This document shows, in pieces, positions 3,666-63,800 of a DNA stretch of 64,000 bases (positions are counted from its first letter, which is position 1; each line of letters starts with the position of its first letter). A program made the translations under genes and the position numbers. Where the stretch lies: contig NC_135260.1 in assembly GCF_964204865.1 (NCBI RefSeq), forward strand, positions 19,948,001 to 20,012,000, in the 5' to 3' direction. The notes under the pieces are model-generated. The model was not told the DNA's origin. It saw only the letters and a program-made list of their open reading frames with translations, and did not search any database. The stretch is from Styela clava (taxonomy: Eukaryota > Chordata > Ascidiacea > Stolidobranchia > Styelidae).

Positions 3666-3674
3666 TTTACGCAC

Positions 3675-4195
3675 GGTTCCATTATCTTTGAACCCGCGTA
3701 CATTTGAACCCGTACATCTGAACCCGTAATTTGAACCCAGGACAATTGCACCTGTATACTATTGCACCTATGGACATTTGCACCTACGGACATTTGAACC
3801 CATACATTTCCACCCATGGATTTTAGCACCCGCATATAGATTGAACCCGCGGACATTTGAACCCGTGTACGTTTGCACCCGCGTACATTTGAACCCATGT
3901 ACATTTGCACCCGCGGACATTTGAACCCGTGTACGTTTGCACCCGCGTACATTTGAACTCATGTACATTTGCACCCGCGGACATTTGAACCCACGAACAT
4001 TTGCACCCGCGGACATTTGAACCCATGTATATTTCCACCCACAGACATTTGAACCCACGTATATTTGAACCCGCGTACATTTGAACCCACGGACATTTGA
4101 ACCCGCGTATATTTGAACCAACGTATATTATATTTGAACTCGCTTAATTTGAACCCGCGTACATTTGAACCCACGTACATTTTCACAAAAAATGT
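3675..4195. repeat. Left TIR: 16-bp minisatellite array
   Basis: About thirty 16-bp units alternate TTTGAACCC and TTTGCACCC cores with variable four- to seven-base linkers (CGCGTACA, CGCGGACA, ATGTACA). The outer part carries irregular units that have exact counterparts in the right array, for example the stretch with TATACTATTGCACCTATGG. Sixteen is not a multiple of three, so all minus-strand frames stay open with a 16-residue period. Those frames are not genes. Confidence 0.9.
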
Positions 4196-5427
4196 TTGCC
4201 CCAACGGCAATTTCCAGTCGCAAATAATTTTCATGTTACAGGCGCAAGCTCAATATTCTAAATTTCAACACTGTTTCACTTGTAGTTAGTTTTGGTGTAT
4301 ATGCATTTATCCGCTTCTACGAAGCGAGCATTTTTGAGTGTCATTGTAGTCCGAGGGATAAACGTCTCTTAACGATATAAACAACATTGTTCTGCCAAAG
4401 TCTTTTTTCTTTTGCTGTTTTTTTACATTGACATTTGTAAAACCTTATTTCATTCGTTAGCCGCGATCTCCAAAACAGACGATGACCTAGAAAGCGGTAT
4501 TTCGTTGAAATACCTGAAACCAGGGCTAATACGGAACAAATATCTCACAGACCAATGAAGTCTTAAATGAGGGTCTTACTAAAACTAGCTTTACAGTTTT
4601 GTTCTGAAATTATTGCACCGAAAACGCCTACTATGATATCCCGCCCAGTATGAGATTTGGGAGCTCTGTGGCCACTTCATGTTTTCTTGCTAGCATGTTT
4701 ACAAAATTGTTATATGTATGCATACACGACCACGCTTTACTGTTGAAAATGAGTGTTGTCTCAAATCAGGTTTTGACATTTTTCCTAAAATCAATCTATA
4801 AATTGAATACTATTGTCTTAATATAAAAAAATAAACTCACAGATTCTTCGTTTCTAAGAAAATATGAAATTAAGATAATGAAACTATGCCATTTTTGTAA
4901 CAACATGTTCATAGCCAAATGCCAGTTTTATTGAAGTATTGTTTCATTAGAATGTCAGAACAAAACTATACATAGAAATCGTAAGTCATGTAAATATGTT
5001 GAATATTCGAAAGTGAAGAAGTTTTAAAATCATTATCGTGGCCAAAAATGTTTTTTGCTGTTTACACTATTTAGAGTGAATCGAACATATTCAGCATATA
5101 GGGTCTGTTAAATATGATATTGCAATTTACAAACGACGTCATAGGTTACGGATTACATTTATTTTAATATCTCAATAAAGTTATCACTCACAAATTTGTG
5201 TCGAATGGGCGATCAATTTTGAGATAGAGTAGCTATGGACGTTTTACAAAATAGGAATTTTTCAATTATGATACAATAGTTACAAAGTAACAACAAATCA
5301 AAGTAATGACGATAAACGAAATTTTACGATATCACGATCAAAATCAAATAGACTGCATTTGAGCTATTGAGTGGAGATACCTCAGCTTGTCGGTTTCAGT
5401 TCCATATGAAAAAACTTAACTGTCAAC

Positions 5428-6733
5428 CTAACGGCAAGTTGTACATACTTTGATCTTTGGTGGACCGTAACTCCTACATGAGCATTTGCGGCAGTCAGTT
5501 TGTGGACCGCAATGTCTTTTCGTAGGCCATTCAGCAAACCCCATATATATACTCGGGTGTTTGCATCGGAACATTCCTTGTAAGGCGTTGTGAAATCCTT
5601 CTACAGCGTTTGTTGTTCTTGGGGCCGAAGGCACCATTTCAATCTCTTTGGCATAGTTCCACAATCGAGGGGGAAATCTTGTTTCTCTTGGACGTGAACC
5701 CACTTGAGCTCCACGAATGTAGGTAGATTCAAAATATTGCAAAAGTTGATTGCATTCGGGCAAATCTTCAAAGGTGTCGCAAAGCAAGGGGAAGACTTCG
5801 GCAACCTCGTTAATGGGAACAAAAGCCAGAGCTGCCAAACTTCTAATTTTCAGATTGAAAGAAGGTAAACATTCAAACTTCTCTTTTAATCCGATAGAAC
5901 CAACTTTTCGAAATAGCTTGTGACAGGTGAAAATAACATTCTTTAAAATCGGCCAGAGGAAAATGTGCATGGAATGCATTGATAGCTGCTATTTCAAAAT
6001 CAACAATGATTTTGGTGGGGTTAGCATTTGGGAAAATGATTTTCAACGCTTCCAACATCTGAACGTATGTTTCTTGTCGCTTGTCTCGTAATAGGAAATA
6101 TACGCATGGTGGATAGGATGCGCCCACTTTACAGTGAATTGTATACAACTGGAAGAAAATATCGGGCACCACATCAAATGTATCGTCGCCAAGATATGGG
6201 TCACTATCTAGATGTGCAAGTAGTGATCGATCTCCAATGGCCATTATCCGATGACGATCCTCCGAGCCAGTGTCATGCAAAATGATATCTAAATATTCGC
6301 TCGGAATATCAAAGCTTGCACTTGTAGGATTCGTACGTGAACAATTTTTCTGTCGCCTTACTCTGCGTATATTGGCCTCCAGAGTCGACTTGCCTGGCAA
6401 GCGCATTACTACATCTGTTGATCTATTATTCAATACTTCACCTAAAATATATCTTGTCGATGTATTTGATGGTGTTGATGCTGCTTCTTTTAATGTTGCA
6501 CGGATGATCCCAACTTCAGTCTTAATGCTGTCGCCAGAATGACTGTGATATCCTAGTTCTTTTATTACATTTTCACCGATTGTAACAACAGTCGATTTAC
6601 ATCGAAATTTCCTAAACTGACGGCAGCGCCAATGAGTAGCATCTGAAACCCGATCATTTCGCTTACAATATTCGTGGCCTTTGTAAATCAGTAAGTCGTT
6701 TCCTCTTGTGGTCTTGGAAAATGTAGGCGCCAT
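5428..6733 (-). pseudogene. FLYWCH/MULE-type transposase, frameshifted
   Basis: Two overlapping minus-strand frames together encode a Mutator-type transposase. The first (6733-5873, 286 aa) starts with a FLYWCH-like zinc finger at about residues 12-67: a conserved Trp, Cys pair and terminal HSH. A MULE catalytic domain follows, with DDTFDVVP holding the first Asp, IIVDFEIAAINAF the second, then the ECYFHLSQAI motif. The frame is lost just after this motif. The second frame (5979-5428) resumes the family sequence FRKVGSIGLKEK and LAALAFVP and contains TTNAVEGFHNAL with the expected catalytic Glu. The shift is explained by one extra T near 5917. All three catalytic acidic residues are present, so the lesion looks recent. 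The C-terminus, rich in Cys and Arg, may be truncated. The 286-aa part alone would lack the third catalytic residue. Confidence 0.85.
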
Positions 6734-7214
6734 GTTTCCAACTTATTTTCGCAAAGGGACTTGTCATCTTCGCAGCTGCAACGTCCTAAAGAAACAGTTT
6801 GGAATTGTCTGCGAGGGGAAAAGGGCATTGATGCGAGGAAAAACTTTGCGCGGGATCGAACTAACACATCAATTAAAATCCTTGCTCGCGCTCTTCAAGA
6901 GTCGTCGACCGTTCAAAGCACAAATCATACTCCCCAATTTTGGCTCGCATTCTACAGCGGAACATTTTGTCCATTGAGTCTTATGATATCGACAATTGCG
7001 ATGACAATGACAGACGGAGTATAATATAAATATATAATATAATTTAAATATATAGAAAATAGTTGTAATAAAGCCTTCGAGTATATAATCGAGAATTCCA
7101 TGGTGTTTTCGCAACGTATGCATTTGGACAAAAAATCCTAAGTGTACCTTCCAATCCTATATACTATAGTATATAGCATGGAAGGATAAGGGTGTATATG
7201 TAAAGACGCATATA

Positions 7215-7729
7215 TCCGTAAATGCAAATGCCCATGGGTGTAGATGTTCATGGGTGCAAATGTCTGTGGGTACAATTGTACGCGGGTGTAAATGTATGTA
7301 GGTTCAAATGTACGCGGGTTCAAATGTACGTGGGTTCAAATGTCCGTGGGTGCAATTGTACATGGGTTCAAATGTCCGCGGGTGCAAATGTTCGTGGGTT
7401 CAAATGTACATGGGTTCAAATGTCCGCGGGTGCAAATGTACATAGGTTCAAATGTACGCGGGTGCAAACGTCCACGGGTTCAAATGTCCGCGGGTGCAAA
7501 TGTACATGGGTTCAAATGTACGCGGGTGCAAACGTACACGGGTTCAAATGTCCGCGGGTTCAATCTATATGCGGGTGCTAAAATCCATGGGTGGAAATGT
7601 ATGGGTTCAAATGTCCGTAGGTGCAAATGTCCATAGGTGCAATAGTATACAGGTGCAATTGTCCTGGGTTCAAATTACGGGTTCAGATGTACGGGTTCAA
7701 ATGTACGTAGGTTCAAATGTGCTGTCACC
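7215..7729. repeat. Right TIR: 16-bp minisatellite array
   Basis: Inverted counterpart of the left array, read as TGGGTTCAAATGT and variants. The outer portion, about 7490-7715, matches about 3690-3910 of the left array unit for unit, including the irregular units. The inner portion shares the unit but not the same order, suggesting independent slippage of the inner arrays after the ends formed. Confidence 0.9.
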
Positions 7730-7738
7730 TTTACGCAC

Positions 7739-22872: not shown

Positions 22873-22929
22873 GCGAGCTTTGCTTTTGGCTTGACAGTCA
22901 TTTTCTGTCTCAATGAAATCACATTTGAT

Positions 22930-25656
22930 CAGTGGCGGCGCGTGGTCATTTTGACAACCGGGGCAAGCTACTGCGGGACCAAGTCACCCTATCTACGGGG
23001 ACAGGATGAGCGCTGTAAGTTCTCCCATCATTTTATGAGTATAAAAACCATTCCATCGGTAACAACCAATCGGCAAAAGCGACAATTTTTAATGATAAGA
23101 AAGTGTCTTTAAAACCGGTCCAAGTCAAGGGATTAATAAATATAGACATAGTTTATTTTGAAACCTCTTACAAACGGAAAGGCAATATTTACCCAGATAA
23201 ATACAATGACATATTAACAGAAACTTCGGGAAAGCAGACAAAACCTAAAACAAGGTTTAAAACGATACTATGAAGAAAGGAAAGTTAATGCAGAGATAAG
23301 GACATGCGTCGCTCACCCATAGATATATATGCTGCTAGACTTCTACTGCTTGAACATATATGCAACACGCCGCGGTTTCTTGGAAGCAAAATGCTCAATA
23401 ACGCGCTGATTAAAGTCATGCATCCCAGAAATAACGTCTCTGTGAATGGATAAAACAGCCAAGGAATTTAATCTATCTTGCTTCATTGTGTTTCTGAGAT
23501 ACGTTTTAATACGCTTCAGCGTGCTGAATGTTCGCTCTGCGTCGGCGGAAGAAATAGGCGTCGTCAAAATGATGTCCAGAAATTTTGCAGACGCCGCAAA
23601 GGTAGTTACTAGAGTGTTATCTATGAGGAATCCATAGAGCGCGCAAGTTGTGATGTTCAAAAAAGTTTGATTGGTGTATATACATCGCAATTCATTTTCC
23701 AATTTACCCACGTTTATCATGGGGTAAAATTTGGAGACAGTAACCAACAAATGGATGGGAAATTGACGTGCAAATTTTGAAAAATTTTTGGGGTTCATCA
23801 AAGAGAACGCGGCAAGGTGTTCAGTGCGCAGACGATCGCCTATTTGATTCACCAGAATGTCACAGCATTCCTTTGCAGACAAAATCAAACGCTGCGTTGT
23901 TTGCCCGCGGCGTAAAGAAGCACTCCATGTGTCGTCGTGTTTTATTGTTTCCCGGATACGAGATACAGCATCGCAGAAGTCTGAAATACACGACTGCACA
24001 GACGCTCCATCCATTAGCCTTGACTGCAATGCGCCGTATAATACATCCACGTGATAGAATATTGTGGAGAAAAAAGCAAGAAAAAATGAAAACTCACCAT
24101 CTTCGTCCCAAACCGGAGAGCTCTGAATGCCATTGAAACACTCAATGAGCTCAGACCTAATTTCGGACACGCCCTGCACCACGCGTGATTGGAAGTTCCA
24201 ACGTGTTGGTGCACAAGCTGGGAGACGGCGGCTACATATCTGGCGAAGGAGGTCAGAGCGCTTCGGCGAAACGGAAAAAAAATGAAGAAAACCCCGAAAC
24301 ATTTGCAAAAAATATACGGACGAGAGGGGTATCAAGACACATATTTTTAATAACGAGGTTAAATTGGTGTGCATAACAATGTAAAAAATGCGCATGAGGA
24401 AAATCTTCTTTTATATAAACTTGAACACCATGTTTCGACCCACTCATGACTGCCGCGCCGTCATAAGTTTGAGCTATCAATTTTGACTTCGCGTTGTAAG
24501 GCTGTAACACTTCTTTCAGTACAGCCGATATCCCGCAAGCCGTGCGATCAACGATTGGTACAAAGCTGTGAAATCTCTCGGTAGGTTTACCATCTTTCAC
24601 AAACCGAAATATCACAGCCAGTTGGGAAACGCACGTGATGTCAGTTGTCTCGTCAGACTGAATCGAAAGGAACTGGCAATTCTCAATTTCCAGAGCCAAA
24701 TGTTGTAAATAAATTTTATACATTGAGTCGAGCAAATCATTTTGGATATCCTTAGATGGCGATCCTTTTCTCGACGTTTTGGTTGTGCCGACGAATAGAA
24801 ACCGCGCGTCCTTCATCCAACCGTGCTGCAATATTAACATTTCCGAATGTTCGGTATTTTACTGCTTTGTCCAGATGCTTCATAGAAGATTGATGATCCC
24901 TGGCACGCTCGGAAAGATGTTTAAGATCTCTAAAACCAAATTTACACCAACGTGAGTTACGGGCGGTAGCAAAAAGTAGGCAATAAAAACAAAAAAGTGC
25001 ATTTTTGTCTTCGCTGTAACACAACCATTCGTGTTTTTTATACCAAGTTTCTGCGCAGAATGTACGCCAACGCTTTCCTCCGTCATGGGATTGTTCCAGT
25101 GAACAATTTTTTGGTTGATAAGGCCCAAGACGTTGTACCTCTAATTTTTGTTCCAGCGGCAGCTGCGAAAACGGAGTGCGAAGTAGTGCATCAACCTTAT
25201 TCATTATGAGGTCTAAGGCTAAGAAATGCGAAGCCGGAAAGAAGTGGGGAGCTCGGAAGGAATGTGGAAAATCGAAAGCAAATGGACTAATGGTCTCTAA
25301 CTGATTCAAATAGCGAAACAAGCGACAAAAACGAAGGCGAGGAAACTATCAACTCTTCAAGCAACCAACGAACGAGAAGGAATGCGTGAATATGTCAACA
25401 CGTTGTTGTAAGAAACGTCGGCATTGTGTCGTCATAATTTTGGGACTAGCCCCGATGATTTAGTAAAAGAAACAGAAAACAAACGAGGCGAGTGGAAGAT
25501 AAAAGAGAGAATACGATATACAATGAGCAACCGGGGCAAAATCGGGTGTAGACAGTCTGTGCAACCGATATTGAGGTATTTTACGAATATTTTTTATTAT
25601 ACCGAAAAAACAACCGGGGCATTGCCCCGGCTGGCCCTATTGACGCGCCGCCACTG
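22930..25656 (-). mobile_element. hAT transposon copy 1, 2727 bp
   Basis: Terminal inverted repeats CAGTGGCGGCGCGT at both ends and a perfect 8-bp target duplication CATTTGAT (22922-22929 and 25657-25664), the hAT signature. It is a close relative of the 3042-bp copy at 60882-63923. Compared with that copy it lacks about 43 bp after 24104, about 185 bp near 24755 and about 70 bp near 25540. The first two gaps are bounded by short shared sequences (TTC; ATGGCG), typical of end-joining repair. The transposase is on the minus strand and broken. Confidence 0.92.
23343..25204 (-). pseudogene. hAT transposase with TTF-type zinc finger (copy 1)
   Basis: The minus-strand reading begins at MNKVDALLRTPFSQLPL. 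A TTF-type zinc-finger region follows: RTFCAETWYKKHEWLCYSED and ALFCFYCLLF. Then comes an RNase-H-like hAT core with QSDETTDITCVSQLAV, QTYDGAAVMSGSKHGVQ and HCYAHQFNLVI. The C-terminal dimerisation region has TTPISSADAERTFSTLKRIK. This resembles ZMYM1/DUF4371-type hAT transposases. The frame is broken: a deletion near 24755 removes part of the N-terminal half, and a shift near 24290 follows the HCYAH region. After that, 24395-23343 reads 350 aa continuously. The 5' deletion in this copy is intact in copy 2. Confidence 0.88.
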
Positions 25657-31116: not shown

Positions 31117-34100
31117 TTAATATTTGGATATGATGTGTTTCATGAACTCAGTTTTAAATTTTCTATATGAAAATGTTTTGAAAATGTCAGGAATGTCATT
31201 CCAAATTTTGGGTCCCATGATTCTGATTGAATTTTGAGCAAATTTAGAATTTGTTCGAGTAATAAAAAATGCACCCTTGGAAGCAGAGCGAGTGTTATAA
31301 GAATGCACAGAACTGCAGTCGGTAAAATACGAAATAAATGCCTCTGGTAACATATTATGTCTGAATTGGTACATCAATTTAGCAACTTCATAAATAAATA
31401 CATCGTTTATTTTTAGAATATACAAACTCTTGTAAATGGGGCTCATACTATGACGCAAGGGAGTATTAGTCATAACTCGAAGAGCTCTATTTTGTAGAAC
31501 AGAAAGAGCATTAAGTCTAATCTTATTTGCGGAACCCCATGCCACTATTCCATACTGTAAGTGAGAAAAAAAGAGAGAGAAATAAACAGTGCGCATGATT
31601 TTTTTAGGAATCAACCTTTTTAGTCTTGTCATTACTCCAACAGCTCTAGACAGTTTCAGTTTAAGGGAGTTGATGTGGTCATCCCATTTAAGCCTATTAT
31701 CAATGAATATACCAAGGTATTTAATAGAGTCGCGTATTTTCAAACTGACACCATTTAGAGTGAAATTAGGACCAGGTGCATGTTTATTTATATTACAAGG
31801 ATGATTAATTAATAGAACTTGTGTTTTCTCAGGATTTATAGTTAATTTATTAGATTTCATCCACTGGGAGACATTTAGTAGGTTTTGTTCAACTTGACTG
31901 GTCAAATCAATAACACTGGAGGATATTGACGTTGTGCTCGTGTCGTCAGCAAAAAGTTTGACAATTGCTGAAGTAGTGTTCACCACATCATTAATATAAA
32001 CAAGGAACAGAGTCGGGCCAAGAACTGAGCCCTGGGGCACGCCGACAGAAACAAGTTCATGAGGTGATTCATTGGCAGAGAATGAGACAAATTGATAGCG
32101 ATTGCGCAGGTAACTAGAAAACAATTTACTGACAGTGCCGCGAATTCCATAATGTTGCAATTTGCTAATAAGTATTTTGTGATCAACTGTGTCGAATGCT
32201 TTTTTTAAGTCCAAAAATATACTACAGCCAACCAAGCCCTTATCTATGATTTCATAATATTTACTAATAATATCTAGAATTGCATGTGATGTTGAATGTT
32301 GATTTCGAAAGCCAAATTGACCGCTATTAATAATACAATGTTTATTTAGAAAATTTTGAAGGCGACTCAGCATCAACTTTTCAAAAACAATAGAGAGACA
32401 TGACAGTATGGAAATGGGTCGATAATTGGATACCTTGTCCTTTTTTCCAGATTTATATACAGGAACAACTCTGGCAACTTTAAGATGGTCTGGAAATACA
32501 CCATAAAGCACAGAGTAATTGAAGAGTTTACAGAGTATGGGACTTATTGTACTGCAGAGAAGTTTTATGAGATAAGCTGGTAATTGATCGTATCCAGTTG
32601 CTTTGTTTGTTTTTAAAGAATTAATAATGTTTACTACTTCATTTAATGAGGCATCTTCCATGAACATGGACGACTTATTTGGAGCACTCATGAATTTCAG
32701 GTGATCATGATCACTTACATTGTGAAAAGCTGAAGATAAGGTTTGTCCAATCTGAGAAAAATAGCTATTGAACATATATGAAATTTTAGCACTATCATGA
32801 ACAACCTCCCCTGAGTGCTAGTCAATTAATATTTGCGTAACATTATTATTAGTTTTTGAATTTATTAATGAATTAATTGTATACCAAGTCTTTTTTGGGT
32901 CATTTATATTTTTTTCGAAGCGTTTCGCAAAATATATCTCTTTGGCTTTCTTTTTCAAGTGGCATAATTTGTTTGCGTATCTCTTATAGTGCTGTTTTTG
33001 TTCAATGGATCCGTTAATAAAGTGCGTTTTATGCAATTTATCTCTTATTTTGGTTGAGCGCAAGATGCCAGCTGATATCCAGGGCTTTCTCTCTAATTGA
33101 CGTTCCTTTCTGGTTAGGTTCCTTAGTGGTGCATGGTTGTCACATACACTTAAAACTTTAGAAATGAAATCACTGAAATGAAGATTAAAATTTTCAGGAT
33201 TAACATTAAAAAGATCATAAGAGGTAAAAACATTCAGGGCGTCTTGAACAAAGTTAACACTATTAAAATTTCTCATGTCACGTTTTAATTTATGTTGAAA
33301 GTGGGAAGATGCATGACTAAGTTGAATTTGACAAAAAATAGGATAATGATCTGTCATACAATTTTGCCAAACTAAAGACGAAACACATTTTTCAGATATG
33401 TTGGAATAAATATGGTCTATTAAAGTAGCACTTGAACTAGTTACTCTTGTCGGGAGGGTTATTACTGGAATAGTGGCATGAGACATCAACATTTCAAGAA
33501 AACCTCTTGTGAATGTTGAGAAGCTTAATAAATTAATATTAATGTCACCTAGTATAATGAATTTCTTTTTATCGAATGCCAAATTCTGAAGCGTGTTGCT
33601 AAGTTCGCTCATGAAATCAGATTCATTGGATCCTGGGTGGCGATAAACAATACCAATAACAATGGAAGAAAACTTTTCAAAATGAATAGGTATTTCAACC
33701 CAAAGCTCTTCACATGAGTTGACATTTAGCTTATATTTAGGCACCATTAAAGGATTGAGATGAGACTTAATATACAATCCGACTCCACCAGCATGAGTTT
33801 TGGTTGGTGCATGGAAAAAATCATAACCTTCAATATCTATATTAACAATTGGGTCTGCTTTAAGTTTAGTTTCAGAAAGTGCTATTACTGTAGGAATTGA
33901 ATTTAGATCAGATATAATGTTTGACAGTTCATCGATATGCTTTTGTAAAGACCGAATGTTGAAATGTGCCAAAGTAAATCGCTTATCAGGTGTACCCGAA
34001 GAGCCTAAGGTGTTATATACATTTTCAATAGTCTCAAGTGATAAGCAGGGTTTAACATTCTCAAAATTGAAATCAGTAGTATCAAGAGGTTCTAATTCAT

Positions 34101-34209
34101 TGTCTGTTATATATGGGCAGCTATAAAATGGAAAAATTGATTTCAAACAAGCACTGCAAAGACTACTATTACTTGTAAAACAGTTAAAGCAATACTGCTG
34201 GGCAGCCAT
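31117..34209 (-). pseudogene. LINE ORF2: endonuclease-reverse transcriptase with one stop
   Basis: The frame starts at 34209 and is open for 463 codons. It meets one TAG at 32818-32820, continues in the same frame for 14 codons and is open again to 31117, about 1030 residues in all. The N-terminus has a Cys cluster (CFNC, CSAC, SC). The endonuclease shows AHFNIRSLQKH, ALSETKL, GVGLYIK, YRHPGSN, ILGDINI, LIDHIYSN and TDHYP. The reverse transcriptase shows FRNQHSTSHA, LKKAFDTVDH, GVPQGSVLGP and the catalytic FADDTS. No RNase H domain was seen. Apart from the single stop codon all catalytic motifs are present, so the element is young. Such polymerases nick target DNA and prime cDNA from the exposed end. 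Confidence 0.92.
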
Positions 34210-34251
34210 TTTACAGGTCCAGTAGGCTACACAAATATATCAATACATAAT

Positions 34252-35176
34252 TTAGGATAATTTATCCAAATCTGAGAGCTTGGTAATTGGGATTCTAGGA
34301 CTATCTTTAGATTTCTTCAAATAAATGTTGCCATTGGTTGTCCATAGTCTCTCAAACATTTTAGACTTTTTTATTAGTCTCGAATTATAAAGAAGATTGT
34401 TCCTGAAATTAGTGAGGTTTTCGTTTATGTAAAGTGAGGTCATACCTGTAATCCCAAAGTCTTTGATTCGTGACGCGTCATACTTTTTGGCTATAAACTC
34501 ATTCTTTTTATTTCTGTTGGTGAAACGCACAATGATGGGCCCAGTTTTGGACGAGTCTCTCCTTGGAAGACGATGCGAAACTGAAATGTCCAGCCTTTCA
34601 ACAGTTATGCCCAGTTTTTTCCCTATTCCCACAACTATTTTATCTGTGTTTTCACCATCTTTGTAAGGAATTCCATGAAATTCAAGATTTTCTCTTCTCA
34701 TATATTGCGCGAGGTCTTCGAAGTCATGATCAAAACGCTGCTGAAGGGAGTTACAATTCATTTTTTGCAGTCAGATCTCTCACCACCTGGTCCAGTTTTG
34801 CAATATAATCTTTTTGAATCTCGAATTCTGCACTAATAAATTCTTGACTAGCTTTGACAGTGCATAAGTCGGTGTCCAATTTGGTATTGTTGAAACGCAG
34901 ATATTCCAGTTCTTGAGTTACTTTGGAGAGCTTCTCAACTAATTGGTCAGTCTGGAGAAACATTGTTTCCAGTTTCTCAGTCATTTGTTGGGTATTATTC
35001 ATGACTGAGTCGTTGATTTGACTTGATATTTTCTTATCGTGTTCAGTTATTGAATCTTCAAGTAGGTCCCTTATGCTGTCTTCTACGATTGCTTTGATTT
35101 CGATTTTTAAATTCTTTGTTATGCGTGATTCCATCAGTTCCAATGTTGACTTCAGTTGGTCAATTTTGCTTTCCAT
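34252..35176 (-). pseudogene. LINE ORF1: coiled-coil RNA-binding protein, frameshifted
   Basis: The first part (35176-34751, 141 aa) is a heptad-rich coiled coil ending DLTAKNEL. The second (34761-34252, 169 aa) contains RRENLEFHGIPY, SVSHRLPRR, PIIVRF and TSLYINENLT, the RNA-recognition and C-terminal region of LINE ORF1 proteins that act as trimeric nucleic-acid chaperones. The two frames differ by one base and overlap by 11 bases at a run of six A. An A-run length change is the simplest explanation. The alternative is genuine termination and re-initiation, since the ATG of the second frame precedes the stop of the first. Confidence 0.85.
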
Positions 35177-35264
35177 TATAATCAGATTAGAACGACTATA
35201 TAAATTAGTTTTAAGTAAGTATATGCAAGAACCTGTGAATCCTTGGACAGCATCCTTGGACCAG

Positions 35265-35600
35265 GCATTCTGACATTTGATATATTCCAGTGTTCGGCAC
35301 TTACGGTACCGGTACGGTACCGGGTAACAGCGTATGGCGCCGGTGTTAGAACTGAGACAACGCAGTTACCGGTACGGTATTAGGACTAAAATCTTTTACA
35401 TGTTTCCTGTTTATAATACAATAACTGAATAACCGTATTGGTCTAGTTACGGTGGTCTACATACCGGTACCGGTACATACTTGGTCTACATACCGGTACT
35501 GGTCTACAAGACATACCACAGTCTACAAATATACTGACACCAAGCAAGAAGTCCATGATTTCGAAAAACAAATACCGGTAGCGAAGAGCGAAGCAGTATT
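35265..35600. repeat. Continuation of split tandem unit and TACCGGTA-rich region
   Basis: 35265-35297 continues the 108-bp unit. From 35298 the palindromic motif TACCGGTA and GGTACCGG recurs many times, also seen at 28520-28710, giving simple self-complementary sequence without a gene. Confidence 0.6.
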
Positions 35601-45279: not shown

Positions 45280-45915
45280 TCATAACAGCATGCATTGGCC
45301 AGTCTGTGCTTGATCGGCTTCTAACGGCGTACGCATATCTTTCAATGGTTCAATTTTTTCCGTCAAAAAAGTTTCAAGTTCTTCGTAAGCGTGTTGTAAA
45401 TTGTCGTTCACGACGATCAGATCGTACACTCCTGGCGTTTGACTAAACTCGATAGCAGATTTTGCGGTAGCCATTCGTTTTTCAATAGCCTCTTCGGTTT
45501 CTGTACCACGCTTCACCAGTCGGTTCCGTAGTTCATCTATAGAGGGTGGTTTTACGAAAACGAAAAGCGCGTCCAGATGAGATGCTTTAATACTTCGCAC
45601 ACCTTGCTCTTCAATGTCAAGAATACAAATTTTGTTTTCTAAAACATCTTCGACAGCTTTCTTGCTTGTTCCATATAAATTTTCTGAAAATTCCGCATGT
45701 TCGATGAATTTCCCTTCTTGTATTTCTTTCCTCATTTGTTCTCGCGTTGAAAAGTTATAATGTTGGCCGTCAATTTCTCCTTCTCTGGGAGATCTTGAAG
45801 TATGAGATACACTGAAGCCGAAAGCATCTTTGTAATTTTTAAACAATATGTTCAACAACGTACTTTTCCCACACCCTGAAGGACCACTTATAACGACGGG
45901 TCTCAAGTTGGCCAT
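45280..45915 (-). CDS. GUK1: Guanylate kinase, intronless, CaaX-like end
   Basis: Cytosolic enzyme that phosphorylates GMP/dGMP to GDP/dGDP with ATP. The single 211-codon frame has the P-loop GPSGCGKST at residues 11-19. The GMP-binding segment SHTSRSPREGEIDGQHYNF follows, then FIEHAEFSENLYGTSK, CILDIEEQGV, and the lid-region RGTETEEAIEKRM. YDLIVVND closes the core. The length fits the family, with a slightly longer C-terminus. The protein ends QTGQCMLL, which has CaaX form (last residue Leu favours geranylgeranylation). Guanylate kinase genes in other animals usually have introns, so this copy could be a retrogene. However it has no poly-A tract or flanking repeat and no lesions. It converges with NAF1. 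MAGUK-type proteins were excluded because no SH3 or PDZ sequence is attached. Confidence 0.92.
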   Translation of the reverse strand: MANLRPVVISGPSGCGKSTLLNILFKNYKDAFGFSVSHTSRSPREGEIDGQHYNFSTREQMRKEIQEGKFIEHAEFSENLYGTSKKAVEDVLENKICILDIEEQGVRSIKASHLDALFVFVKPPSIDELRNRLVKRGTETEEAIEKRMATAKSAIEFSQTPGVYDLIVVNDNLQHAYEELETFLTEKIEPLKDMRTPLEADQAQTGQCMLL

Positions 45916-48900
45916 GAGTCACAGACAATTTACTGTTATTATATATATATATATATTAATTTCTGCAAATATTGTATAAAATACTTTTGTTAACAAATTT
46001 GCACTGTATGCTACATAAAATGCCTGAACTAGGAAATCGACTAAAAATGTTAACTTTTATATTACTTCGTAAAAAATCAATACCAGTATAAAAGCCGTTG
46101 CCGTTCAGATGTGACTCGCTTTTAAACAATAGTAGAATGTAATCTGTATCATTTCCTTGAAGTAGGTTATACTACATACAAGTATTATCTGTTTGTACTG
46201 GCACTATTTATATCCGGTTAATCGTGCGATGCCATGTTGAACACATGTAGGCCTACATACAGCTCGTGTCAATACAAAATTACGACCACAAAAACCTATT
46301 TAGCAGACCAAACCAAAAAAAACATATTCTTAACCGTGAACCGAATCGATTAATTAGTCGGCCTATATTAGGGTTATCAGTTTTTAGTAAAAGTCGGCCT
46401 AGCTTTGGGCGACGTCTGTGATTTTTAGCACGTTTGGATGCCATATGCCTATTACTGATGTCTCAAGTAAAAAAAGTTTGTAATTTTTAAATGCTTGGTG
46501 TCAAATAATTACCTGAACATTTTATTAATCTCAATATTTAAACCTATTCAGCAAAGTCCAAGCCTCGATACGCCATAAGGCAATCTATCTCGATAAAGTA
46601 ATAGCTTCTAGTCTCTACGAGCTAGTTTCGCACTATTTGGTTAATTTTCCCGCCATATCCAAGTTTCCAAAGCAAATATAACTTTTCGAGTTCCACTTGG
46701 CAAATATGTCTCGTGTTCTCGTCAGTGCCCCGCTGCTGCTCCTAACGTAGGCTATAGCGCGTTGAAAACCATTAATATCTGAGTGCACACTGCTGGCATT
46801 GCCACGTGTTTCGCTGTACCTTTACGTTCTGAACGCATGAACCGAGTTATAGATAAGTTAAAATCAGGACCCAGTATGTTGAAGCTGTCGTGTCATGTAC
46901 TTCTATAAAACTACCCAAAACTGTGAATTGCACTTTCTGACTCAACTAGTTGCGTTATGTAGAACGAAATGGGTCTAACAACTTCGCCACCAATTTAACG
47001 AATGCCTTCCTGAATAGCCTACGACCCACGTATAGCCATCGAGCTGCGGATCTATTGTGCGACCGCATTTTAAGCCAGTTATATCGACCGTGTTATATAT
47101 ATATATATTCTCCTAAGTCGATTAAGCGCTTCATTGAATACGTTTTTCAAGGAAATACCGAGTGCTGTTCACGGTTGGATTTTCCTGAAAATGACAATTA
47201 CGTGTCGTTATCAGGTCCCTGAGGGGATGAATAGGTCGCTACTTAGAAAACCGTCTTCGATCCCATATGTTTAAAATCGAAATCAATAATCTATGTTATT
47301 AGTATGTAATCGGATTAGCTTTCCCTGTATACGCATTAATTAATGTGGTGATTGAACACGAACACAATAATTTAAATTATTTATAACGTACCACAGAAGT
47401 AGTTCGACAACCCATTGTCCAAAATCATTTACATCAGATTCAGTTTAACTTCTCACGTTTTTCTTCATCAATATTTGCCCGATAATTTGAACAAGTAAGT
47501 TTTCAGTTCAATCTCAAAAGAAACGAAACCTGAAGTGGTTAAGGTGATTTTTCTGGTAATGACAATGGTGAGGTAAAGTTGGGGAAATACCACGTGAAGA
47601 CTTTGGGACTCGTTGTAAAGAACTGTCGTTGTGGTTGCAAATAGATTAGACCGGAAATAATAAAAATTGAGTGTCAACAAGTAGTCTGTACTGTTGGCCC
47701 TTAAGCCATAAATCACAACGCAATAGCAAACGACAATACATTACATATATATTGCAGGTTCACTTTATGTAATATGAGCGACTTTAGCGTACACTAGATG
47801 TTTAAGTCGGATTAAAGAATTAATTTCACATTGCGGGCTTATTTTTTCCTGAAAGCAAATACTTCATTATTTTATGAAAGAGTAATCATATAATAAGTTT
47901 CACACAAATGACATTTTACTGAAATTATTCGTCGTTCATTGCGTCTATTTCAGTCGATTTGCTATAAAAAGTTTTTTAGTTCTGCTTATATTCCAAAAAA
48001 CTATTTAACACATGGTTCCCAATATGTTTAGTACACATTCAGCTTTAGTTATATCAAAAATGTTCGTTTCTCAAGGCACAAATCCAAATAAAAATTAATT
48101 TTCACTTTCAATTAAAAAGTATAGTAGTGTGGAGAGCGTTTTTGAATAAAACTGGCACATATATTTTGTTGAAAATGATACGGTACAATGAACACAAAAT
48201 AACCTGACAATAATGAAGTTGTCGAAACACCACTGTGTGGAGAAACGGTGTTTGAAGTGATTATTCATTTACCCACGAGGGGGATATCTGGAAAGACGAA
48301 GGAACGCTTTAAGTTTCCTTAAAGCGTCCTGTTTAGGAAATTCTGATCTCGATGTTGTTGCAATTTGTGACAACGTAATGGGATTCGAAAAAAACGGTCA
48401 TCTTTTCTCATCTCATAAGTGGGGCTTCAAATAGTTAACCATTTTTGGTTAGGGGTTACAATCAATTCTGACCTCTAACTATCATAGTACTACCTTTTCT
48501 AATATATATTCACCTAATGAGGATTAATCCGCGCGATGATTAATCAGCCATTTTCTAATTGAATAGCTCCTGATTCAACCTTAGTTGCATATACGAGAAA
48601 TATTAAGAACGACTATTAAATGGCATTCAACAATTTCGAATTCAATCAAAATAATATATATAAGAAAATCTATATTTTAGGAAGTAGTGACAATCGCTTC
48701 GAATTCACAATATTTTCCAGCGCACGGAATAAGTTTCTCTTTTATAAAAAAAAGTGAGTAAGCAGAGTAATTTTCGACAATATCATAGCAATTTCATTCT
48801 AAAATGCTCTTGAATTTCGAGGTAACAAGCCCTATTTTGCATTATTAAAAGCAAATGAGATACGTGAGACTGTCGAAAAAAGATAATCCAAACTTATAAA

Positions 48901-52448: not shown

Positions 52449-52650
52449 GGTTCCATTACATTTGAACCCACGTACATTTGAACCCACGACAACTGCACCT
52501 GCATACTATTGCACCTATGGAATTATTTTGTCGTACGGATATTTGAACCCATACTAACCCTAACCCATGGGGTTCAGCACCCACATATAGATTGAACCCA
52601 CGGATATACACATGGGTTCAAATGTACATGGGTTCAAATGTACGGTCACC
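52449..52650. mobile_element. Short derivative of the minisatellite-TIR MULE
   Basis: About 202 bp. The left end GGTTCCATTACATTTGAACC and the units with TATTGCACCTATGG match the left TIR of the 3675-7729 element; the right end TTCAAATGTACGGTCACC matches its right terminus. The interior is reduced to a few 16-bp units plus ACTAACCCTAACCC. The flanking 9-mers TATTAGAAC and TATAACGAA share only 5 positions, so the duplication has decayed or the ends recombined. Confidence 0.8.
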
Positions 52651-55443: not shown

Positions 55444-55483
<40 letters not shown>

Positions 55484-60873: not shown

Positions 60874-60881
60874 GTACACAC

Positions 60882-63800
60882 CAGTGGCGGCGCGTGGTCA
60901 TTTTGACAACCGGGGCAAGCTACTGCGGGACCAAGTCACCCCCATCAACGGGGACAGGATGAGCGCTGTAAGTTCTCCCATCATTTTATGAGTATAAAAA
61001 CCATTCCATCGGTAACAACCAATCGGCAAAAGCGACAATTTTTAACGATAAGAAAGTGTCTTTAAAACCGGTCCAAGTCAAGGGATTAATAAATATAGAC
61101 ATAGTTTATTTTGAAACCTCTTTCAAAAGGGAAGGCAATATTTACCCAGATAAATACAATGACATATTAACAGAAACTTCGGGAAAGCAGTCAAAACCTA
61201 GAATAAGGTTTAAAACGTTACTATGAAGAAAGGAAAGGTAATGCAAAGATAAGGACATGCGTCGCTCACTCATAGATATATATGCTGCTAGACTTCTACT
61301 GCTTGAACATATATGCAACACGCCGCGGTTTCTTGGAAGCAAAATGCTCAATAACGCGCTGATTAAAGTCATGCATCCCAGAAATAACGTCTCTGTGAAT
61401 GGATAAAACAGCCAAGAAATTTAATCTATCTTGCTTCATTGTGTTTCTGAGATACGTTTTAATACGCTTCAGCGTGCTGAATGTTCGCTCTGCGTCGGCG
61501 GAAGAAATAGGCGTCGTCAAAATGATGCCCAGAAATTTTGCAGACGCCGCAAAGGTAGTTACTAGAGTGATATCTATGAGGAACCCATAGAGCGCGCAAG
61601 TAGACGTGATGTTCAAAAAAGTTTGATTGATGTATATACATCGCAATTCATTTTCCAATTTACCCACGTTTATCATGGGGTAAAATTTGGTGACAGTAGC
61701 CAACAAATGGATGGGAAATTGACGTGCAAATTTTGAAAAATTTTTGGGGTTCATCAAAGAGAACGCGGCAAGGTGTTCAGTGCGCAGACGATCGCCTATT
61801 TGATTCACCAGAATGTCACAGCATTCCTTTGCAGACAAAATCAAACGCTGCGTTGTTTGCCCGCGGCGTAAAGAAGCACTCCATGTGTCGTCGTATTTTA
61901 TTGTTTCCCGGATACGAGATACAGCATCGCAGAAGTCTGAAATACACGACTGCACAGACGCTCCATCCATTAGCCTTGACTGCAATGCGCCGTATCATAC
62001 ATCCACGTGATAGAATATTGTGGAGAAAAAAGCGAGAAAAAATGAAAACTCACCATCTTCTAGCAGACGCTTTAGACCTGCCGCCTCCCTCACAGAGCGT
62101 TCGTCCCAAACCGGAGAGCTCTGAATGCCATTGAAACACTCAATGAACTCAGACCTAATTTCGGACACGCCCTGCACCACGCGTGATTGGAAGTTCCAAC
62201 GTGTTGGTGCACAAGCTGGGAGACGGCGGCTACATATCTGGCGAAGGAGGTCTGAGCGCTTCGGCGAAACGAAAAAAATGAAGAAAACCCCGAAACATTT
62301 GCAAAAAATATACGGACGAGGGGGGTATCAAGACACATCTTTTTAAAAACGAGGTTAAATTGGTGTGCATAACAATGTAAAAAATGCGCATGAGGAAAAT
62401 CTTCTTTTATATAAACTTGAACACCATGTTTCGACCTACTCATGACTGCCGCGCCGTCATAAGTTTGAGCTATCAATTTTGACTTCGCGTTGTAAGGCTG
62501 TAACACTTCTTTCAGTACAGCCGATATCCCGCAAGCCGTGCGATCAACGATTGGTACAAAGCTGTGAAATCTCTCGGTAGGTTTACCATCTTTCACAAAC
62601 CGAAAAATCACAGCCAGTTGGGAAACGCACGTGATGTCAGTTGTCGTCTCGTCAGACTGAATCGAAAGGAACTGGCAATTCTCAATTTCCAGAGCCAAAT
62701 GTTGTAAATAAATTTTATACATTGAGTCGAGCAAATCATTTTGGATATCCTTAGATGTCCCTTTCGAAACAGTTGCGGCATCAAGATAATCTCTCAATAC
62801 TGTATCCAGGGATGCGGTGTATTCCACCATATCTAAAAATACCCCTCTATTAGAAGAGCCAGCCCGTTCATCGTGCTCACGGAGGGACAGCTCGTGACAA
62901 CCAATGAACTTCAAAACATCTATCAATCGACCGAGAACATGGCGGTTTTTCTCGACGTTTTGGTTGTGCCGACGAATAGAAACCGCGCGTCCTTCATCCA
63001 ACTGTGCTGCAATATTAACATTTCCGAACGTTCGGTATTTTACTGCATTGTTCAGATGCTCCATAGAAGATTGATGATCCCTGGCACGCTCGGAAAGTTG
63101 TTTAAGATCTCTAAAACCAAATTTACACCAACGTGAGTCACGGGCGGTGGCAAAAAGTAGGCAATAAAAACAAAAAAGTGCATTTTTGTCCTCGCTGTAA
63201 CACAACCATTCGTGTTTTTTATACCAAGTTTCTGCGCAGAATGTACGCCGACGCTTTCCTCCGCCATGGGATTGTTCCAGTGAACAATTTTTTGGTTGAT
63301 AAGGCCCAAGACGTTGTACCTCTAATTTTTGTTCCAGTGGCAGCTGCGAAAACGGAGTGCGAAGTAGTGCATCAACCTTATTCATTATGAGGTCTAAGGC
63401 TAAGAAATGCGAAGCCGGAAAGAAGTGAGGAGCTCAAAAGGAATGTGGAAAATCGAAAGCAAATGGACTAAAGGTCTCTAACTGATTCAAATAGCGAAAC
63501 AAGCGACAAAAACGAAGGCGAGGAAACTATCAACTCTTCAAGCAACCAACGAACGAGAAGGAATGCGTGAATATGTCAACACGTTGTTGTAAGAAACGTC
63601 GGCATTGTGTCGTCATAATTTCGGGGCTAGCCCCGATGATTTAGTAAAAGAAACAGAAAACAAACGAGACAAACGCGGCGAGTGGAAGATAAAAGAGAGA
63701 ATACGATATACAATGAGCAACCGGGGCAAAATCGGCGTCGCCCCGTCGACGTTCGGCGAAGGCTTTGCGAGCGAAAAATGAACCATGTCAGGAGAATATG

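Follow-up and report, generated by a model that had tools for sequence, protein, structure and literature searches.

Arrays of short tandem units have been described at the ends of several Mutator-like elements (MULEs) of animals. Tm1 is known from root-knot nematodes (Meloidogyne; PMC3169594). In Aedes aegypti, 10 of 12 MULE families with long terminal inverted repeats (TIRs) carry subterminal tandem repeats of 9-15 bp, and Muta1 has a 10-bp tip followed by 12-bp units with 3-4 bp spacers, giving a period of 15-16 bp (PMC5225508). A minisatellite is listed in aphid Phantom members and in Rehavkus, with the Muta elements placed with Phantom (PMC6446971), and arthropod MULE TIRs reach 1,193 bp (PMC13359780). 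Here a MULE of Styela clava was analysed, at positions 3675-7729 of a 64,000-bp stretch of contig NC_135260.1 (the window), together with its relatives in the genome. We assign the element, at a probability of roughly 0.85, to a Phantom-group, Foldback-like MULE family with recent cut-and-paste transposition, placed by domains, duplications and end architecture. An earlier note on this DNA had regarded tandem-array ends as unusual for MULEs; for animals this was wrong, as the 10 of 12 Aedes aegypti families (PMC5225508) and Tm1 (PMC3169594) show. The element and its parts are, in window coordinates:

3675..7729, no strand assigned: whole transposon, 4055 bp; termini kept in the fetched copies; two other copies have aligned related empty sites
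3666..3674, no strand assigned: left target site duplication TTTACGCAC, 9 bp, abutting the element
7730..7738, no strand assigned: right target site duplication TTTACGCAC, 9 bp, abutting the element
3675..3686, plus strand: left terminal motif GGTTCCATTATC, absent from the opposite end
3687..4182, plus strand: left array, 31 units of 16 bp, consensus TTTGAACCCGCGTACA, the middle with a 32/64-bp higher-order pattern
4183..5381, no strand assigned: A+T-rich non-coding interior
5382..6742, minus strand: transposase gene, frame-broken in the window copy; main open reading frame (ORF) pieces 6742-5873 and 5988-5428
6539..6721, minus strand: FLYWCH zinc finger, Pfam PF04500, E 2.3e-11
5918..6130, minus strand: MULE transposase domain, Pfam PF10551, E 3.3e-9
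7223..7717, minus strand: right array, about 31 units (Tandem Repeats Finder), mirror of the left array
7718..7729, minus strand: right terminal motif GGTGACAGCACA (inward reading)

A perfect 9-bp duplication and mirrored arrays of a 16-bp unit had been claimed for this element, and both were found. The duplication, TTTACGCAC at 3666-3674 and 7730-7738, occurred only twice in the window, both times flanking the element (probability of a chance match between two random window 9-mers, 1.3e-5). Tandem Repeats Finder counted 31.2 tandem copies of a 16-bp unit at 3687-4182 and 31.6 at 7223-7720, and the two arms were 92% complementary across 439 bp, ungapped. The pattern ACATTTGAACCCRYG (up to 2 mismatches) matched the window 53 times against 0.54 expected; 48 matches lay within the element and 5 within a short copy at 52449-52650. 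Over the 36 regular units of both arms, TTTG.ACC was near-invariant and positions 5, 10, 11 and 13 were the most variable. In the arm middles TTTGAACCC units alternated with TTTGCACCC units, which produces the higher-order pattern, and a 64-bp block was duplicated there (63/64 identities on the left, 62/64 on the right). The description of the ends as TIRs held for the mirrored arrays and failed at the tips: the outermost 12 bp differed (GGTTCCATTATC left, GGTGACAGCACA right) and were not mutual inverted repeats.

The MULE transposase expected between the arrays was recognised by its domains, and its gene was found to be frame-broken in this copy. The FLYWCH and MULE domains were located in minus-strand ORFs of the window element, with the frame break separating the ORF pieces. 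Both belonged to one protein, as seen in a window ORF piece and in the open frames of copies L020 and L025 (FLYWCH E 3.9e-11 and 5.4e-11, MULE E 3.3e-6 and 3.5e-8, respectively). All of these exceeded the cut-offs, the L020 MULE score barely so (27.9 vs 27.6). In a search of the first ORF piece against the PDB (E up to 1), the sole match was the FLYWCH1 structure 2rpr, a weak one (E 0.005). The C, C, H and H that we take to be the ligands of the finger were found by eye. D183, D245 and E378 (L020/L025 alignment) are candidates for the DDE triad. At E<=0.01 the L020 and L025 frames gave only FLYWCH and MULE, with no PHD finger (the mark of Rehavkus) and no THAP domain or P-type transposase (Galileo and the P superfamily). 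Two ORFs checked in the interior (4183-5381) gave no Pfam match above the curated cut-off. Searches of viral contigs and prokaryote genomes found no relative.

Of the 40 copies examined, 12 had a frame that stayed open over 435-465 residues (stop to stop), and a single first-ORF stop was common to 12, namely the window copy and 11 others. The window copy is unable to make a whole transposase and sits in a young group of near-identical copies with a common frame break; it was therefore probably moved in trans by protein made elsewhere. In L020, which is closely related to the window copy, the frame is open and a short stretch beside the CxxH motif is read otherwise than in L025; the young group may therefore depend wholly on other copies.

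The genome searched comprised 376.6 Mb, with the window on contig C14. The transposase region matched at least 40 places, the window included, at 94-100% identity; this is a lower bound, as 40 of 92 candidates were scored, and the other 39 places were fetched as L009-L047. The interior stretch 4230-5380 likewise matched at least 40 places (40 of 84 candidates scored), some of them outside the 40 transposase places, for example C1:1280700, so that long copies number more than 40. Both ends were present in 29 of the 40 long copies (window counted), and the other 11 had one end within the fetched stretch. Target duplications of the kind seen in the window recurred at these copies: 27 of the 29 two-ended ones were flanked by perfect duplications of 8-10 bp (20 of 9 bp, 6 of 8 bp and 1 of 10 bp), and that of L042 was a near-copy with an extra base. 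The sides of the tips were fixed in 29 of 29 copies, each form being confined to the side that it occupies in the window copy; L034 had the left tip with an alignment gap over it, and L033 a tip with one base change. Array length varied from 2 to 39 units on the left and from 23 to 34 on the right (own counter), and the greatest arm length among the full copies measured was 698 bp by landmark (L024). The base just before the long copies was biased to C (16/27, background 0.177, p 1.7e-6), and no significant bias was seen before miniature inverted-repeat transposable elements (MITEs) of the family (4/13, p 0.27).

Queries made by joining the flanks of long copies and MITEs matched across the junction at other loci or in the window in 8 of 49 cases (L013, L020, L031, L041, L048, L052, L054 and L057). 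Empty sites were aligned for two copies, L031 and L013; these sites are related paralogous repeats, not alleles. The flanks of L013 aligned to L041, with a single unchanged target and no array. The flanks of L031 matched the window at two places, with one target copy (one base changed) and no array:

22926..23080, plus strand: related empty site of L031, with a single CATTTTCAC-like target that differs by one base; insertion absent
60881..61030, plus strand: second related empty site of L031; no insertion

These sites bear on an alternative in which the arrays are minisatellites of independent origin and a MULE landed within or between them. Arrays of that origin would be retained at empty sites, as the earlier note had pointed out, and they do resemble minisatellites in the output of Tandem Repeats Finder. 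The related empty sites held no array and the target duplications lay outside the arrays in 27 of 29 copies; on junctions and empty sites this origin was ruled out, and we consider it extremely improbable. As a separate observation, the two L031 sites lie directly beside two similar hAT-like transposase gene copies, at window 23343-25345 and 61296-63433 (minus), with Dimer_Tnp_hAT found by Pfam in a piece of the first and DUF4371 in a piece of the second.

Arrays were also searched for independently of the transposase. A two-unit array pattern (up to 2 mismatches) gave 3148 genome matches (control, 0). The exact matches on contig C1 fell at 65 places, which were grouped by us into 15 clusters; cluster ends were taken from the left and right tip listings and from loci L016, L035, L068, L069 and L071-L074, the left end and 9-bp duplication of L069 being read by eye. 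Both family ends were present at 10 of the 15 clusters and one end at 5, so that solitary arrays numbered 0 among the 15 exact-match clusters of C1, inexact-only clusters and other contigs being outside the classification. This suggests that the arrays travel with the transposon and rarely alone, and it counts further against independent minisatellites.

A homogeneous pattern of four units, built from one version of the unit and allowing up to 3 mismatches over its 64 positions, gave 37 matches, 31 of them in one array at C1:30467847-30468390 and the other 6 at five spots. That array lies inside a 697-bp MITE (L068) flanked by a perfect 9-bp duplication. Its left array (L068 348-901) is homogeneous, having expanded to 34.7 units that match at 97%, against about 3 units at the right end. 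The proposal that the element seeds minisatellites across the genome was thus mostly unsupported, all 15 exact clusters of C1 adjoining at least one family end and one long homogeneous locus being found with the searched unit version. Two further loci were observed: L070 (1-701, contig C2) is a one-direction 16-bp array of about 700 bp, near the length of the longest full-copy arm, and L072 (32-489) is an arms-only foldback derivative in which left and right arms are fused without an interior.

Variants were compared over the outer 245 bp of both arms in 23 of the 29 two-ended copies. L019, L027, L028, L034, L044 and L047 were left out, L044 for a deletion-shifted right arm and the other five for outer-arm indels; L028 showed no gap and its exclusion was unneeded. 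In the window copy the arms were identical for 235 bp (arm positions 23-257), with identity falling to about 60% in the inner parts. The longest run in 5000 mismatch shuffles was 122 for the whole arm and 147 for the first 450 columns, and 0/5000 reached 235. One left/right difference of older copies (alignment column 66) was missing from the young group. Both observations would be expected if continuous gene conversion within each copy kept the arms alike. Such conversion should leave the same variants in both arms, and across the 23 copies 93 variant cells were in one arm only and 0 were identical in both arms of a copy. Ongoing arm-to-arm conversion is disfavoured by this count and we regard it as unlikely; the arm identity of the young group therefore looks inherited, not continually renewed.

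Ends of the family were counted with tip patterns (up to 2 mismatches). The left-tip pattern gave 3149 genome matches (control, 6) and the right-tip pattern 3503 (control, 1). Among the exact left ends in the matches listed, 7 had the long-element form TATC. Twenty of the first 21 left ends listed were sampled as MITEs, C1:1283086 being skipped because it had the long-element form. Both tips were present in 20/20, 170-405 bp apart, the right tip with 0-2 mismatches, and just one or two whole units lay beside each tip. Perfect duplications flanked 13 of the 20 (12 of 9 bp, 1 of 8 bp). From this sample of ends we infer that the ends in the genome come mostly from short MITEs, one of which is in the window:

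52449..52650, plus strand: short non-autonomous copy (MITE), 202 bp, both tips, outer units ordered as in the left arm

The alignment of this MITE to the outer left arm had 154 ungapped positions, 130 of them matching, and 32 gap columns. Its native unit order scored 90, the best of 5000 shuffled orders 81, and its hairpin fold gave a z of -6.3. First-look genome candidates resembling it numbered 2131, of which 40 were scored.

The earlier note had suggested that the 16-bp unit is a binding site for a multimeric transposase, through its FLYWCH finger. Variants common to at least two copies, which have probably passed through transposition, were rarer in the TTTGNACCC core than in the spacer (5/242 vs 16/200 sites, Fisher p 0.006); for singleton variants the difference was not significant (14/242 vs 18/200, p 0.20). 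Avoidance of the core by shared variants fits selection on the core as a predicted binding site, and with small numbers and related copies gives this plausible suggestion modest support. It also bears on a second alternative, in which transposition depends on nothing but the 12-bp tips and the first unit, the arrays playing no part in it and having arisen by slippage from an ordinary short inverted repeat. Sampled MITEs with one or two whole units per tip, yet with such ends in thousands, are what this alternative would lead one to expect, and the wide differences in array length among copies and the gain of about 35 units by one MITE agree with it. It does not account for the shared variants, for the outer unit order common to the window MITE and the long arm, or for the keeping of arrays by published relatives (PMC3169594, PMC5225508), and we regard it as possible but doubtful.

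For the preferred reading, of a recently active MULE whose arrays take part in transposition, the following mechanism is proposed. The 16-bp units, each with a TTTGNACCC core and a variable spacer, would form a multi-site platform at each end, on which the FLYWCH-MULE transposase would most likely load. MULE and IS256-like DDE transposases cut at the tips and insert via staggered cuts. Here the cuts would be made at the outermost bases of the element, beside 12-bp tips that are unlike each other and would mark left and right, and insertion would duplicate mostly 8-9 bp; the family would now be dominated by short MITEs with both tips and few units. A more tentative extension, which we think could hold but would not favour, is that each tip is an end code of its own, one for the left and one for the right, with the array as a loading platform common to both. 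Selection would then maintain a direction-aware, two-part end in which the tips stay distinct and the 235 bp adjoining them are free to be identical, and MITEs with both codes and little platform would outcompete their parent.

Several observations weigh against parts of this reading. The core/spacer test comprised 21 shared columns in related copies. Among variant spacer columns (shared and singleton) 12 of 34 were at CpG, and among core ones none, so that mutation bias is possible; the window as a whole showed no CpG depletion (observed/expected 0.99). L027 had both ends and no duplication; its left flank resembled the interior of other copies (85-99% identity), and it may therefore be nested or rearranged. 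Perfect duplications were lacking in 7 of the 20 sampled MITEs. At the window MITE there was no exact 7-10 bp duplication at the junction, the flanking 9-mers agreeing at 5/9 by hand. That short MITEs carrying few units have spread widely argues against long arrays being required.

Other features of the window were a LINE-like (long interspersed nuclear element-like) retrotransposon with reverse transcriptase and endonuclease ORFs (31117-35365, minus), an uninterrupted guanylate kinase ORF of 212 residues (45280-45918, minus; Pfam E 7.7e-61), which could be an intronless gene or a retrocopy, and a (TA)18 microsatellite (55446-55481).

A close likeness is seen to Tm1 (PMC3169594). Its transposase is likewise of the FLYWCH-MULE type, its duplications are 9 bp long, its ends consist of tandem units whose number varies, two short terminal motifs that differ from each other lie beyond the inverted repeat (29/29 in the Styela family), and most of its members are MITE-like. 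The Tm1 unit is of about 14 bp and other sequence, against 16 bp in the Styela family, and is present in 1-9 copies against about 30. Tm1 is described there as low-copy and senescent, whereas the Styela family counts its ends in thousands and includes near-identical copies, and the last FLYWCH histidine, absent in Tm1-A, is present (by eye) in the window element. Muta1 and Muta5 (PMC5225508) also have a terminal motif with about 9 subterminal tandem units behind it (15 bp in Muta5), 8-9 bp duplications and hundreds of non-autonomous derivatives, with variable unit number in those of Muta1. Both have fewer units than the Styela family. Muta1 also differs from the present account in its imperfectly palindromic 10-bp tip, its activity shown in yeast and its two-exon coding region.

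Phantom MULEs (group 20 of PMC6446971; Marquez and Pritham 2010, as cited) can be likened by description only: they have FLYWCH, SWIM or no finger, duplications of 8-10 bp where given, and TIRs of 18-613 bp or none. Tetris of Drosophila virilis (PMC4079207) has Foldback-like ends with tandem units able to grow into satellite arrays; its units are of about 220 bp, its satellite-like arrays of kb size and it lacks a transposase of its own, whereas in the Styela family one expanded MITE was found. Galileo of Drosophila (P superfamily) has Foldback-like tandem-repeat ends, at which its DNA-binding domain binds several sites; its protein, with a THAP domain and a P-type transposase, is unrelated to the FLYWCH-MULE protein (PMC3688188). 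The same paper, in 2013, stated that tandem repeats of Foldback and Phantom elements as transposase-binding sites were untested. The Styela family is a good place for such a test, offering many near-identical long copies, natural array-length variants, open transposase frames and thousands of short MITE ends. Its architecture matches that of published Phantom-group, Foldback-like MULEs (Tm1, Muta1), so the general plan was already known; the family stands out by its number of units, its recent activity, its number of ends and the clean asymmetry of its tips.

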